DNA of 58,795 nucleotides from Acidimicrobiales bacterium (lineage in GTDB: Bacteria; Actinomycetota; Acidimicrobiia; Acidimicrobiales; Aldehydirespiratoraceae), in the NCBI GenBank assembly GCA_022425325.1, contig JAKMFW010000079.1:1-58795 (forward strand), in the 5' to 3' direction. Numbering within the stretch: position 1 is the stretch's first letter; every line of letters starts with the position of its first letter. Position numbers and translations under genes: made by a program. Positions 30,254-44,425 of the stretch are shown here, in pieces. The notes below the pieces were generated by a model, which saw only the letters and a list, made by a program, of their open reading frames with translations, was not told where the DNA came from and made no database searches.

Positions 30254-31780
30254 GTGACCGGCCTCGATGACAACGACTACCTGCGTCGGATCCTGACCGC
30301 CGATGTCTACGACATTGCGGTCGAGACACCGCTTGACGATGCCCCGTCGCTTTCGGCGCGCACCGGCAATCGGGTGCTGCTGAAACGCGAGGACCTCCAA
30401 CCGGTCTTCTCGTTCAAGGTGCGCGGTGCCTACAACAAAATGGCCAAGCTCAGCCCGGAGCAGCGGGCTCGCGGAGTCATCTGCTCCTCAGCCGGAAACC
30501 ACGCACAAGGGGTCGCCCTCGCCGCCGCCGAGCTCGGCTGCCGAGCAGTGATCGTCATGCCGGTCACCACACCAGCGCTCAAGGTCGACGCCGTTCGTGC
30601 CCGCGGGGCGGAGGTCGTGTTGCACGGCGAGTCCTACAGCGACGCCGAGACCGAAGCCCATCGCCTGATGGCCGAGCAGGGCCTCGAGTTCGTGCATCCG
30701 TTCGATGATCCCGACGTGATCGCCGGCCAGGGCACGGTTGCGATGGAACTACTCCGTCAGCACCCTGGCCCGATCGACGCCGTTTTCGTCGCCATCGGGG
30801 GCGGTGGGCTCATTTCGGGCATCGCCACCTACCTCAAGGCGCTCAGGCCCGACATCCGGATCATCGGCGTGCAGACCGAGGACTCTGACGCAATGGCCCG
30901 AAGTGTCGACGCAGGTGAGATCATCGAACTCGACGACGTCGGGTTATTCAGCGACGGCACCGCCGTGCGGCGGGTCGGAGACGAGACGTTCCGACTCGTG
31001 CAGCGCCACGTCGACAAGATCCTGCGGGTCGACACCGACGCCGCGTGTGCGGCGATCAAGGATGTGTTCGGCGACACCCGGGCCATCCTCGAGCCCGCTG
31101 GAGCGCTCGCCATCGCCGGCCTGAAGCACTACGCCGAGCAGACGGGCGCAACCGGGCAGACGTTTGTTGCGATCGCCTGCGGAGCGAACATGAACTTCGA
31201 CCGCCTCCGCTTCGTGTCGGAGCGCGCCGAGATCGGCGAACGGCGGGAGGCCGTCTTTGCCGTGACCATCCCGGAGGAGCGCGGCTCGTTCCGTCGGTTC
31301 TGCGCCGAGATCGGTGACCGGTCGGTGACGGAGTTCAACTACCGGATCAGCGGCGCTGCGGAAGCCCATGTGTTCGTCGGCATCGAGACCCAGCACCGGA
31401 ACGAAGCCGCCGAGATCTCCGACCAGCTGGAAGGGGCCGGCTTCACGACGCTTGATCTCACCGGTGATGAACTCGCCAAAGTCCACCTTCGCCACCTCGT
31501 CGGCGGAAAGTCCCCGCTCGCCGGCGACGAGGTCCTGTACCGCTTCGAATTCCCCGAACGGCCGGGCGCACTCATGCGTTTCCTCGCCAACATGCGGCCT
31601 GACTGGAACATCTCGCTGTTCCACTACCGCAACCACGGTGCCGATTACGGGCGAGTGCTCGTGGGCATGCAGGTGCCTTCTGACGACCAGGCCGCATTCG
31701 GCGAGTTCCTCGGCGAGTTGGGCTACCGCCACTGGGACGAGACTTCGAACCCCGCCTATCAACTCTTCCTCGGCGGCTGA
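30254..31780 (+). CDS. ilvA: Threonine ammonia-lyase, biosynthetic (threonine deaminase)
   Basis: The 508-residue protein converts threonine to 2-oxobutyrate and ammonia with PLP, the first committed step of isoleucine synthesis. Lys55 in FSFKVRGAYNKM binds PLP; SSAGNHAQGVA and GGGGLISG hold the phosphate. Two C-terminal ACT-like domains (from about residue 335), with EERGSFRRF and ERPGALMRF, are the allosteric part, so it is the regulated long form. GTG 30254 lies 4 bases after the AcnX small-subunit stop; TTG 30242 is an alternative. Confidence 0.93.
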   Translation: MTGLDDNDYLRRILTADVYDIAVETPLDDAPSLSARTGNRVLLKREDLQPVFSFKVRGAYNKMAKLSPEQRARGVICSSAGNHAQGVALAAAELGCRAVIVMPVTTPALKVDAVRARGAEVVLHGESYSDAETEAHRLMAEQGLEFVHPFDDPDVIAGQGTVAMELLRQHPGPIDAVFVAIGGGGLISGIATYLKALRPDIRIIGVQTEDSDAMARSVDAGEIIELDDVGLFSDGTAVRRVGDETFRLVQRHVDKILRVDTDAACAAIKDVFGDTRAILEPAGALAIAGLKHYAEQTGATGQTFVAIACGANMNFDRLRFVSERAEIGERREAVFAVTIPEERGSFRRFCAEIGDRSVTEFNYRISGAAEAHVFVGIETQHRNEAAEISDQLEGAGFTTLDLTGDELAKVHLRHLVGGKSPLAGDEVLYRFEFPERPGALMRFLANMRPDWNISLFHYRNHGADYGRVLVGMQVPSDDQAAFGEFLGELGYRHWDETSNPAYQLFLGG

Positions 31781-40134: not shown

Positions 40135-41769
40135 TCAGTCAGCGGCGTGAAGCAGGCCGTAGACCAGCGAATCGACGAGGGCCTGCCATGAGGCCTCGAT
40201 GATGTTCTCGCTCACCCCGATCGTGGTCCACTCACGGGAGCCGTCGGTCGAGTCGAGCAGGACACGCGTGATCGCACCGGTGCCCTTGCCCGTATCGAGA
40301 ACACGCACCTTGAAGTCGGTGAGGCTGATGCGGTCGAGCGCCGGGTAGATGTCGCCGAGTGCGTTGCGCAGGGCGGCGTCGAGCGCGTTGACCGGACCAT
40401 TGCCTTCGCCCACCGCGAGGTGACGGGTGTCGTCAACCCAGACCTTCACGGTGGCCGAGGTCTCGACATCGACCGCGACGTCGTTCCACAGGCGGGCGTT
40501 GGTGCCGGACCGGTGATCGGTGTCGACCGAGAACGATTCGAGTCGGAAGAACGGCTGCTCCCATCCGGCAGCGCCACGCATGAGCAACTCGAGCGACGCA
40601 TCGGCCGCCTCGAAGTGGTAGCCCTCGTGCTCGAGCTTCTTGAGCGTGTCGATGACATCGCCGACCGTCTTGCCGTCAAGCTCGATGCCGAGCGCCTCGG
40701 CTTTCATCTCGAGCGTCGAACGGCCGGCCATCTCCGACACGAGCACGCGGGTGCCGTTGCCGACCGCCTCCGGATCGACGTGCTCGTAGGCGTCGCTCGC
40801 CCGGCTCAGCGCCGAGGTGTGCAGGCCTGCCTTGTGCGCGAACGCCGTCGAGCCCACGTACGGCTGCTGCGGGTCGACCGAGAAGTTCACGAGCTCGGCC
40901 ACATGGTGGGCAACCGAGGTGAGGTTGGCGAGACGCCCCTCCGGCAGACACTGGATACCCATCTTCAGTTCGAGGTTGGCCATGATCGGCACGAGGTCGC
41001 AGTTACCGACCCGTTCGCCATAGCCGTTGATCGTGCCCTGCACCTGGGTGGCACCCGCCCGCACGGCGGCGAGGGCGTTGGCGACGCCACAGCCGGTGTC
41101 GTTGTGGAGATGGATGCCGACCTGGCAGTCGACATGATCGACGACCGCACCGACCGCGGCTTCGACATCAGGGGGAAGCGACCCGCCGTTGGTGTCGCAC
41201 AGCACGACGGCCTCGGCACCGGCCATCGCCGCCGCTTCCACGACGCGAAGGCTGAACTCGGGGTTGCGTTTGAAGCCGTCGAAGAAGTGTTCGGCATCGA
41301 AGAACACCCGCTTGCCCTGGGCGACCAGGTACTCGACCGAATCGGCCACCATCGCCACACCCTCGTCGAGGGTGGTCTTCAGCGCCTCGGTGACGTGGTA
41401 GTCCCAGCACTTCCCGACGATGCAGACAACCTCGGTGCCGGCGGCGACGAGGTTCGTGAGGGTCGGATCACTGTCGACCTTGCCCTTCGCTCGACGAGTG
41501 GAACCAAACGCCACAAAGGTCGACGTCGACAGGTCGAGTTCGGTCTTGGCCCGCTCGAAGAACTCGTCGTCCTTCGGGTTGGCGCCCGGCCAACCACCCT
41601 CGATGAACGCAACACCGAGGCGGTCGAGCTGCTCGGCGATGCGCAGCTTGTCGTCGACCGTCAGCGAAATGCCCTCCAGCTGACTTCCGTCGCGGAGGGT
41701 CGTGTCGTAGATGTCGACCTGGGTGGGCCAGGACGGATCGTGGACAGCGCTGCGGTCGATGACGGTCAT
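40135..41769 (-). CDS. cimA: (R)-citramalate synthase
   Basis: The 544-residue protein condenses pyruvate with acetyl-CoA to citramalate, a threonine-independent route to 2-oxobutyrate for isoleucine. The HMGL-like catalytic motif DTTLRDGSQ is at 22-30, GIHLHNDTGCG and NGYGERVGN are in the barrel, and the C-terminal LeuA-type allosteric dimerisation domain holds TDFKVRVLDTGKGT. Length and the LEGISLTVDDK and WDYHV pieces match the direct citramalate synthase class rather than LeuA. ATG 41769 overlaps the ilvE stop (ATGA). Confidence 0.9.
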   Translation of the reverse strand: MTVIDRSAVHDPSWPTQVDIYDTTLRDGSQLEGISLTVDDKLRIAEQLDRLGVAFIEGGWPGANPKDDEFFERAKTELDLSTSTFVAFGSTRRAKGKVDSDPTLTNLVAAGTEVVCIVGKCWDYHVTEALKTTLDEGVAMVADSVEYLVAQGKRVFFDAEHFFDGFKRNPEFSLRVVEAAAMAGAEAVVLCDTNGGSLPPDVEAAVGAVVDHVDCQVGIHLHNDTGCGVANALAAVRAGATQVQGTINGYGERVGNCDLVPIMANLELKMGIQCLPEGRLANLTSVAHHVAELVNFSVDPQQPYVGSTAFAHKAGLHTSALSRASDAYEHVDPEAVGNGTRVLVSEMAGRSTLEMKAEALGIELDGKTVGDVIDTLKKLEHEGYHFEAADASLELLMRGAAGWEQPFFRLESFSVDTDHRSGTNARLWNDVAVDVETSATVKVWVDDTRHLAVGEGNGPVNALDAALRNALGDIYPALDRISLTDFKVRVLDTGKGTGAITRVLLDSTDGSREWTTIGVSENIIEASWQALVDSLVYGLLHAAD

Positions 41770-43753: not shown

Positions 43754-43778
43754 AAAAACCGCCCACCGAAGTGGACGG
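43754..43778 (-). terminator. Attenuator terminator before leuB
   Basis: On the minus strand CCGTCCAC (43778-43771), loop TTCG, GTGGGCGG (43766-43759) form an 8-bp stem with one U-G pair, directly followed by TTTTT (43758-43754). It ends 23 bases before the leuB start, so it would stop transcription before leuB. Confidence 0.85.
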
Positions 43779-43784
43779 CCGGAG

Positions 43785-43810
43785 GCGCACGCCGAAAGCC
43801 CGGCGTGCGC
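43785..43810 (-). promoter_or_regulatory. First (pause/anti-terminator) hairpin of the leuB leader
   Basis: GCGCACGCCG and CGGCGTGCGC (43785-43794 and 43801-43810) form a perfect 10-bp stem with a six-base loop. Its 5' arm on the minus strand begins at the stop codon of the leader peptide, so a ribosome stalled on the Ile codons would sit on or near it. It lies 6 bases from the terminator stem. Confidence 0.7.
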
Positions 43811-43842
43811 TACGAAATGCTGATGATGATCAAGCTGGCCAT
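43810..43842 (-). CDS. Leader peptide of the leuB-ilvE-cimA operon
   Basis: ATG 43842 to TAG 43810 encodes MASLIIISIS, with one Leu and four Ile in ten residues, the control-codon pattern of branched-chain amino acid attenuators. A GTG directly before the ATG could also start. The predicted transcription start, about 6-8 bases after the -10 box, falls at or next to the start codon, so the message may be leaderless; no strong ribosome binding site is seen. Confidence 0.75.
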   Translation of the reverse strand: MASLIIISIS

Positions 43843-43852
43843 CACGGCCACC

Positions 43853-43881
43853 AGCCTACCGGGCGCCCTTCTTCGACTCAA
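43853..43881 (-). promoter_or_regulatory. Promoter of the leuB leader
   Basis: On the minus strand TTGAGT (43881-43876) and TAGGCT (43858-43853) are separated by 17 bases, fitting a vegetative -35/-10 pair with the actinobacterial TAnnnT -10 form. Transcription would start near 43846. Confidence 0.6.
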
Positions 43882-43948
43882 TCAGTCGTCGACGTAACTC
43901 ATGGGCTGTACGGCTGAGCGAACCGACCAGACCGCTAGCCTCGTCCGC

Positions 43949-44425
43949 ATGGCAGATGCACAGCAGCTCTCCCAAGCCGCCTTCGACCGGCTCAAGGCCG
44001 AGTACGACGACCTCACCACGCGCGGGCGCATCGACATCGCCCGCAAGATCGAGGCCGCTCGTGAGCTCGGCGATCTCTCCGAGAACGGCGACTACCACGC
44101 CGCCAAGGAGGAGCAGGGCAAGATGGAAGGCCGCATCATGCACCTCGGGCGCATGATCGAAAATGCCGTGATTGTCGAGGCCGAGGTCGGCGGCGATTCC
44201 GTCATGGCGGGGGCCATCGTTACGATCGTCTTTGACGATGACGACGAGGACGACGCTGAGCGCTACCTCGTGGGTTCGATCGAGGAACAGGCTGACGACG
44301 TCACCGTCGTGTCGCCCGGCTCACCGATGGGCGCCGCCTTGCTCGGTGCCGCCGTCGGCGACGAGGTCGAGTACGAGGCACCGACCGGTGCCGTCTTGAA
44401 GGTCAAGGTCCTCGCGATCGCGTAG
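43949..44425 (+). CDS. greA: Transcription elongation factor GreA
   Basis: The 158-residue protein has the N-terminal coiled-coil domain with the acidic tip DLSENGDYHAAKEEQ (about 48-62), whose Asp and Glu enter the RNA polymerase channel to stimulate cleavage of backtracked RNA, and the C-terminal FKBP-like domain with SPMGAALLGAAVGDEVEY. ATG 43949 yields MADAQQLSQAAFDRL. It diverges from the leuB leader. Confidence 0.95.
   Translation: MADAQQLSQAAFDRLKAEYDDLTTRGRIDIARKIEAARELGDLSENGDYHAAKEEQGKMEGRIMHLGRMIENAVIVEAEVGGDSVMAGAIVTIVFDDDDEDDAERYLVGSIEEQADDVTVVSPGSPMGAALLGAAVGDEVEYEAPTGAVLKVKVLAIA

Follow-up and report, generated by a model that had tools for sequence, protein, structure and literature searches.

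The leuB-ilvE-cimA operon in the window (the whole stretch of 58,795 nucleotides of Acidimicrobiales DNA that we analyzed) is preceded by an element that is very probably a leader-peptide attenuator, predicted to halt transcription when isoleucine is plentiful. This reading had been put forward in an initial annotation of the same DNA, and conservation, codon content and covariation support it. Most probably, the attenuator is ribosome mediated and senses charged tRNA-Ile (and tRNA-Val in relatives), with the first of its two hairpins (hairpin 1) perhaps acting by abutment. The annotation had also called the attenuator complete, a description that we do not retain, as no base-pairing antiterminator competing with the terminator was found.

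The element lies on the minus strand between positions 43881 and 43754, and direct reading placed the promoter, leader open reading frame (ORF), two hairpins, T-run and leuB ribosome-binding site exactly where they had initially been annotated. The promoter (43881 to 43853), likewise read directly, consists of a -35-like TTGAGT (43881 to 43876), a 17-nucleotide spacer and a -10 box of the TANNNT type, TAGGCT (43858 to 43853); a strict sigma-70 scan made no call there. The leader ORF, MMASLIIISIS (43845 to 43810), starts at GTG 43845 (or at ATG 43842, giving MASLIIISIS), ends with the stop codon TAG (43812 to 43810) and carries Ile codons at positions -2, -4, -5 and -6 counted from the stop (within 43830 to 43816). 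While the short, Ile-rich ORF stands as annotated, its start probably does not: because of the spacing of the TANNNT box in homologous leaders, GTG 43845, 7 bases after the -10 box, is the likelier start codon, which would yield 11 residues, not 10. Hairpin 1 (43810 to 43785), the proposed sensor of ribosome position and candidate antiterminator, has a 10-bp stem (GCGCACGCCG / CGGCGTGCGC) whose first base is the final G of the stop codon. After a gap of 4 nucleotides (43784 to 43781), it is followed by an intrinsic terminator (43780 to 43754), GGCCGTCCAC-TTCG-GTGGGCGGTT (CCGTCCAC-TTCG-GTGGGCGG when counted from 43778), with its T-run, TTTTT, at 43758 to 43754. This terminator emerged from folding and was recovered by a terminator scan, and the 95-nucleotide leader RNA folded 4.5 standard deviations better than shuffled sequences, 0 of 200 shuffles being as good.

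Downstream, on the same strand, a directly read ribosome-binding site, AGGAAGG (43745 to 43739), precedes leuB (43731 to 42745; start codon GTG 43731), encoding a 3-isopropylmalate dehydrogenase of 328 amino acids (NCBIfam NF002898, over cutoff). It is followed by ilvE, encoding a branched-chain aminotransferase (42683 to 41766; TIGR01122 and NF005146, both over cutoff), and by cimA, encoding citramalate synthase (TIGR00977, over cutoff). The listed cimA ORF spans 41865 to 40135, and the TIGR00977 match starts at its residue 50; the true start is probably located downstream of the listed one, near 41766. The window genome contains two members of the isopropylmalate/isocitrate dehydrogenase family, of which only the one in the window closely resembles leuB.

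To place this element in a wider context, 140 leuB upstream regions of Acidimicrobiia were collected from whole genomes and GTDB species contigs (some genomes being present in both sources). A search for a stop codon, a hairpin and an adjacent terminator, with codons left unconstrained and the remainder inspected, yielded the element in 89 of these regions, 80 of them distinct; these sequences are related, hence the conservation counts do not represent independent events. Codon -2 encodes Ile in 76 of the 80 distinct leaders, codons -5 to -3 mostly encode Ile or Val, and codon -1 encodes Ser, Pro, Arg or others. Over the last six codons, Ile, Val and Leu together make up 58% in frame, but 4% and 9% when the two alternative frames are read. 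The stop codon is TAG in 74 distinct copies, and in 71 the stem of hairpin 1 begins inside the stop codon, at an offset of 1 or 2 bases. Leucine had been named alongside isoleucine in the initial annotation, but the single Leu codon of the window leader is not conserved and Leu accounts for 3% of the last six codons; we therefore rejected Leu as a sensed amino acid, leaving Ile and, in relatives, Val.

In an alignment of 51 diverse leuB copies, 9 of the 10 pairs of hairpin 1 show two-sided covariation and 96% of the cells hold standard pairs, with all shuffles and slides scoring lower. Whereas hairpin 1 varies freely, the terminator core, CCGTCC..GG(G/A)CGG, shows almost no variation across an order, its U-G wobble included; four of its pairs are constant and two others differ on a single side, a near-invariance for which pairing alone does not account. 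Reuse of the same terminator throughout the genome was considered and rejected, the window pattern being essentially single-copy. The comparison across related genomes has thus come out positive for the Ile codons, for compensatory stem changes and for the T-run.

The distribution of the element follows cimA. It was found at 86 of the 118 loci at which cimA follows leuB and at none of the 13 at which it does not, while in two relatives in which cimA lies apart from leuB (L219 and L222) it directly precedes cimA. Therefore, the signal goes with isoleucine synthesis by the citramalate route, and the fit initially noted between the Ile codons and an operon containing cimA and ilvE is borne out. 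The same counts show that the arrangement, once described as uncommon, is the usual one for leuB-cimA loci of Acidimicrobiia. Elsewhere in the window, a threonine-dehydratase-like gene on the plus strand (30326 to 31447; TIGR01127, 324 bits, below cutoff) represents a possible second route to isoleucine, so that citramalate need not be the sole one.

Several further observations concern the surroundings of leuB. A greA-like gene (43901 to 44425, plus strand) is divergent from the attenuator promoter, and greA-like sequence flanks leuB in several relatives as well; the neighborhood therefore seems old. In five element-free relatives (L053, L038, L084, L095 and L117), a -10-like box is located a few bases before the leuB ATG, right behind divergent greA, and leuB may itself be leaderless there. 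Additionally, Acidimicrobiia-like leuB genes occur in public metagenome-assembled genome records L086, L091 and L100 (all three named "Bifidobacterium breve"), L103 ("Pirellulaceae") and L112 ("Acidobacteria"), three of which (L086, L091 and L112) also contain this attenuator; the names of these records look wrong, or the bins contaminated.

The suggestion that the leader is read from a leaderless message has gained support and, judged from its sequence, is probably correct for the window. In 51 of the 77 leuB copies, and in 13 of 21 copies of the leuA leader described below, a TANNNT box lies 6 to 8 nucleotides upstream of an in-frame start codon (ATG or GTG); the frequency at control codons is approximately 1 to 2%. 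The ilvB leaders carry CATACT, read by eye, at about the same distance before the start. In Streptomyces lividans, the mean distance from the -10 box to the start is 6.3 nucleotides (PMC8079986). Since leaderless leader peptides are known from both Streptomyces and Corynebacterium (PMC8079986, PMC11857589), such a start is in itself ordinary for Actinobacteria.

The same layout recurs in front of two sister operons. Copies upstream of ilvB and leuA were first picked up by a covariance model built from the leuB copies and then by directed inspection, giving 30 of 50 ilvB regions and 22 of 30 leuA regions (21 distinct), as opposed to 0 of 30 trpE regions. The sensing codons differ by operon, with Ile/Val at leuB-cimA, Leu-Val-Val-Val/Ile at ilvB and four Leu (-5 to -2) at leuA; as the ilvB and leuA sets were required to hold at least three Leu, Val or Ile codons among the last seven, their codon content is partly selected, while codon position and synonymous choice are not. 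The identity of the leader codons thus tracks the downstream pathway across the three operons, with the layout remaining constant. The sensing codons are rare synonyms: ATT makes up 84% of the Ile codons at position -2 of the leuB leaders (comparison level, 8.6%), GTA makes up 86% of the Val codons in the ilvB leaders (2.6% in leuB genes) and CTT makes up 46% of the Leu codons in the leuA leaders (comparison level, 5.7%). At positions -3 to -5 of the leuB leaders, Ile is written as ATC (86%), confining the rare synonym to the last sensing codon there. The terminator core is specific to each operon, ACCGTCC at leuB, GACCTCC at ilvB and ACCCCTCGTGCC at leuA.

All three leaders are present in the window genome itself. 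Its ilvB leader, MNHAVGLLVVVAR (L342, G000:C100:43500-44400), is probably leaderless, encodes Val three times as GTA and is followed by a stop-locked hairpin with a terminator abutting it; in its leuA leader, MKSCSNTLLLLV (L299, G000:C35), the hairpin GGCGAGCGCC..GGCGCTCGCC directly abuts the terminator AACCCTCC..GGAGGGTT. Leaders of ilvB with the same abutting pair were also found in other actinomycetote families (L391, L403 and L405 to L408). The Streptomyces-type ilvB leader, MRTRILVLGKRVG (L397), does not have this layout and carries no stop-locked hairpin. None of the leuB, ilvB and leuA leaders matched an Rfam family, T-boxes and riboswitches included, near the gathering score, Rfam being the collection of described RNA motifs used for comparison.

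Across all three operons, the spacing of the two hairpins is nearly fixed. Within the gaps allowed by the search (up to 18 nucleotides for leuB and up to 7 for ilvB and leuA), the distance between hairpin 1 and the terminator is at most 5 nucleotides in 125 of 128 copies (74 of 77 for leuB, 30 of 30 for ilvB and 21 of 21 for leuA). The gap stays this short although hairpin 1 itself varies between 18 and 40 nucleotides in length. Hairpin 1 is stable (median, -15 to -21 kcal/mol), and in no copy does it overlap the terminator. The helicase site of the ribosome is located approximately 11 nucleotides downstream of the first P-site base, and the edge of the ribosome lies at approximately 15. When codon -2 occupies the A site, hairpin 1 starts at base 12, which is the G of TAG. 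Folding with the corresponding regions masked (assumed footprints, +11/+15 from the P site) gave hairpin 1 a probability of 0.97 with the ribosome stalled at -2 and of 0.00 with the ribosome at the stop, a result that depends on the footprint, since a wider one leaves hairpin 1 a probability of 0.11 at the -2 stall by opening its lower half.

Neither a search by hand nor masked partition functions, applied to the leuB, ilvB and leuA sets with pseudoknot-free models, identified a pairing antiterminator. With the ribosome stalled at -2 and the 3' arm of the terminator not yet made, the pairing of its 5' arm had a median of 0.02 for leuB, 0.00 for ilvB and 0.05 for leuA. The positive controls, Escherichia coli trp, leu and thr, gave 0.62 to 0.99 at the last regulatory codon and values near 0 at the stop, and E. 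coli his gave 0.21 by the same approach. In RNAfold, hairpin 1 and the terminator coexist; therefore, thermodynamics alone gives termination in both states. Within the models used, then, a classical trp-type antiterminator sharing an arm with the terminator appears to be absent. It is nonetheless conceivable, if unlikely, that attenuation is classical and that its antiterminator escaped our notice, in the form of a pseudoknot, a tertiary contact or a weak pairing between an arm of hairpin 1 and an arm of the terminator. The overlapping terminator and antiterminator hairpins of Corynebacterium ilvB (PMC11857589) would favor this explanation, as would the constraint on the terminator core beyond pairing and the partial pairing of the terminator 5' arm when the 5' arm of hairpin 1 is masked (median, 0.47 for leuB). 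However, this last pairing occurs in the fed state, opposite to what an antiterminator would require, its median falls to 0.24 in ilvB and 0.31 in leuA, and the arm that an antiterminator would have to sequester is free in the stalled state, in distinction from the E. coli trp, leu and thr controls.

We therefore favor a mechanism that runs without competition for base pairs. As hairpin 1 and the terminator have no sequence in common, the former must act in another way, and since starvation must raise expression and hairpin 1 is the sole difference found between the starved and the fed RNA, it should oppose termination; the sign of its effect, like regulation itself, we infer from physiology. 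A ribosome would load on the 5' start codon of the leaderless message. When isoleucine is plentiful, it would reach the TAG codon and cover the whole 5' arm of hairpin 1, so that with hairpin 1 masked only the terminator would form and RNA polymerase would stop near 43754. When isoleucine is short, the ribosome would stall with one of the Ile codons (-2 to -6) in its A site, leaving hairpin 1 just free to fold, and readthrough would follow. Such a stall geometry would account both for codon conservation ending at -2 and for the fixed position of the stem relative to the stop. As for the step from hairpin 1 to readthrough, termination would require the base of the terminator stem to be pulled up near the RNA-DNA hybrid, within an exit channel that has room for one duplex; a stable hairpin 0 to 5 nucleotides upstream could not follow the terminator stem into that channel, and the base of the terminator could not zip. 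Taken alone, this steric step is a tentative proposal, which we would not yet back at even odds. A direct block of the terminator by the ribosome, of the pyrBI type, was rejected, as the leader stop lies approximately 30 nucleotides before the terminator.

Pausing at the 1:2 hairpin belongs to classical attenuation in E. coli trp, and hairpin 1 might analogously be a pause hairpin or a termination helper that synchronizes polymerase and ribosome, with the choice being made by coupling or timing and not by opposition to the terminator. Clusters of adjacent hairpins have indeed been argued to favor termination (PMC8355165), which also counts against abutment. Yet a pause hairpin needs neither a stop-locked start nor a gap of 0 to 5 nucleotides, and without an antiterminator the stalled state would terminate, contrary to the need for isoleucine; we consider this explanation rather improbable. 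A further observation that speaks against our proposal is that leader codon changes before Streptomyces coelicolor ilvB were reportedly without effect (PMC1262725), though the Streptomyces-type leader is without the layout described here. The near-invariant terminator core, for which pairing alone does not account, likewise counts against it.

The contrast between the terminator pairs, conserved over the 51 copies, and the freely varying hairpin 1 would also be expected if the terminator were recognized by an RNA-binding factor with sequence specificity, either NusA or a dedicated protein, with ribosome position acting only as a gate; for the rimP leader, where a conserved terminator likewise stands without a visible antiterminator, a protein has been proposed by others on these grounds (PMC2965389). 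We regard the involvement of such a factor as quite unlikely, given that each operon has its own terminator core, making a single recognition sequence implausible, and that the codons already supply a sensor. Finally, that there is no regulation at all, the leader being just a short conserved ORF and the terminator behind it simply leaky, is hardly credible in view of codons that track the pathway in three operons, rare codons at the sensing positions and covarying stems.

Attenuation governed by branched-chain amino acid leaders is established for Corynebacterium ilvB and Mycobacterium tuberculosis ilvB1 (PMC11857589, PMC10272879, PMC13236596). In the literature collection searched, no paper links Acidimicrobiia with leader peptides and attenuation. 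In M. tuberculosis, replacing LVVI of the ilvB1 upstream ORF (uORF) by AAAA abolishes induction in vivo (PMC13236596; 2026), an equivalent logic at work in a living cell. That system resembles ours in the branched-chain codons, including GUA, of its short uORF, in its intrinsic terminator and in the masking of the antiterminator that is ascribed there to a ribosome positioned at the stop; it differs in its UGA stop and in the mutually exclusive terminator and antiterminator drawn there, and abutment is not described. The Corynebacterium ilvB (ilvB-II) motif shares an ORF start one nucleotide from the transcript start, branched-chain codons and a hairpin plus terminator, but its terminator and antiterminator hairpins overlap, with most of its first hairpin lying within the uORF (PMC10272879, PMC11857589); the first hairpin of the Acidimicrobiia element, by contrast, begins only at the stop codon and stays clear of the terminator. 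Similarly, leuL, ilvL and trpL of S. lividans have a leaderless start, amino acid codons and, in some cases, a hairpin plus U-run (PMC8079986).

With the thr, trp, leu and his attenuators of E. coli, the element has in common its ribosome logic and the location of hairpin 1 at the position of the first antiterminator arm, directly after the stop (trp); unlike in those systems, this segment does not pair with the terminator, the start is leaderless and there is no separate 1:2 hairpin. The LEU element of actinobacterial leuA likewise places a leucine leader before leuA but has a pseudoknot region, pairs its run of Leu codons with the Shine-Dalgarno box and lacks a terminator (PMC1262725), whereas the leuA leaders of Acidimicrobiia have both a terminator and a stop-locked hairpin. 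Identity with the LEU element was rejected, there being no Leu run at leuB and a terminator at both leuB and leuA. Compared with known attenuators, therefore, the logic is the same, and what is new is a fixed, stop-locked and abutting geometry without an overlapping antiterminator.

Taken together, three leader families with a rigid geometry in common and without an antiterminator point to a different coupling between ribosome and terminator. We speculate, with some reserve, that the leaders of leuB-cimA, ilvB and leuA in Acidimicrobiia and other actinomycetote families may form a class of attenuators in which the antiterminator hairpin abuts the terminator and does not pair with it. If true, the ribosome would decide only whether a neighboring hairpin exists, a simple design for a two-hairpin sensor. 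These leaders also outline a branched-chain amino acid regulon for a mostly uncultured bacterial class.
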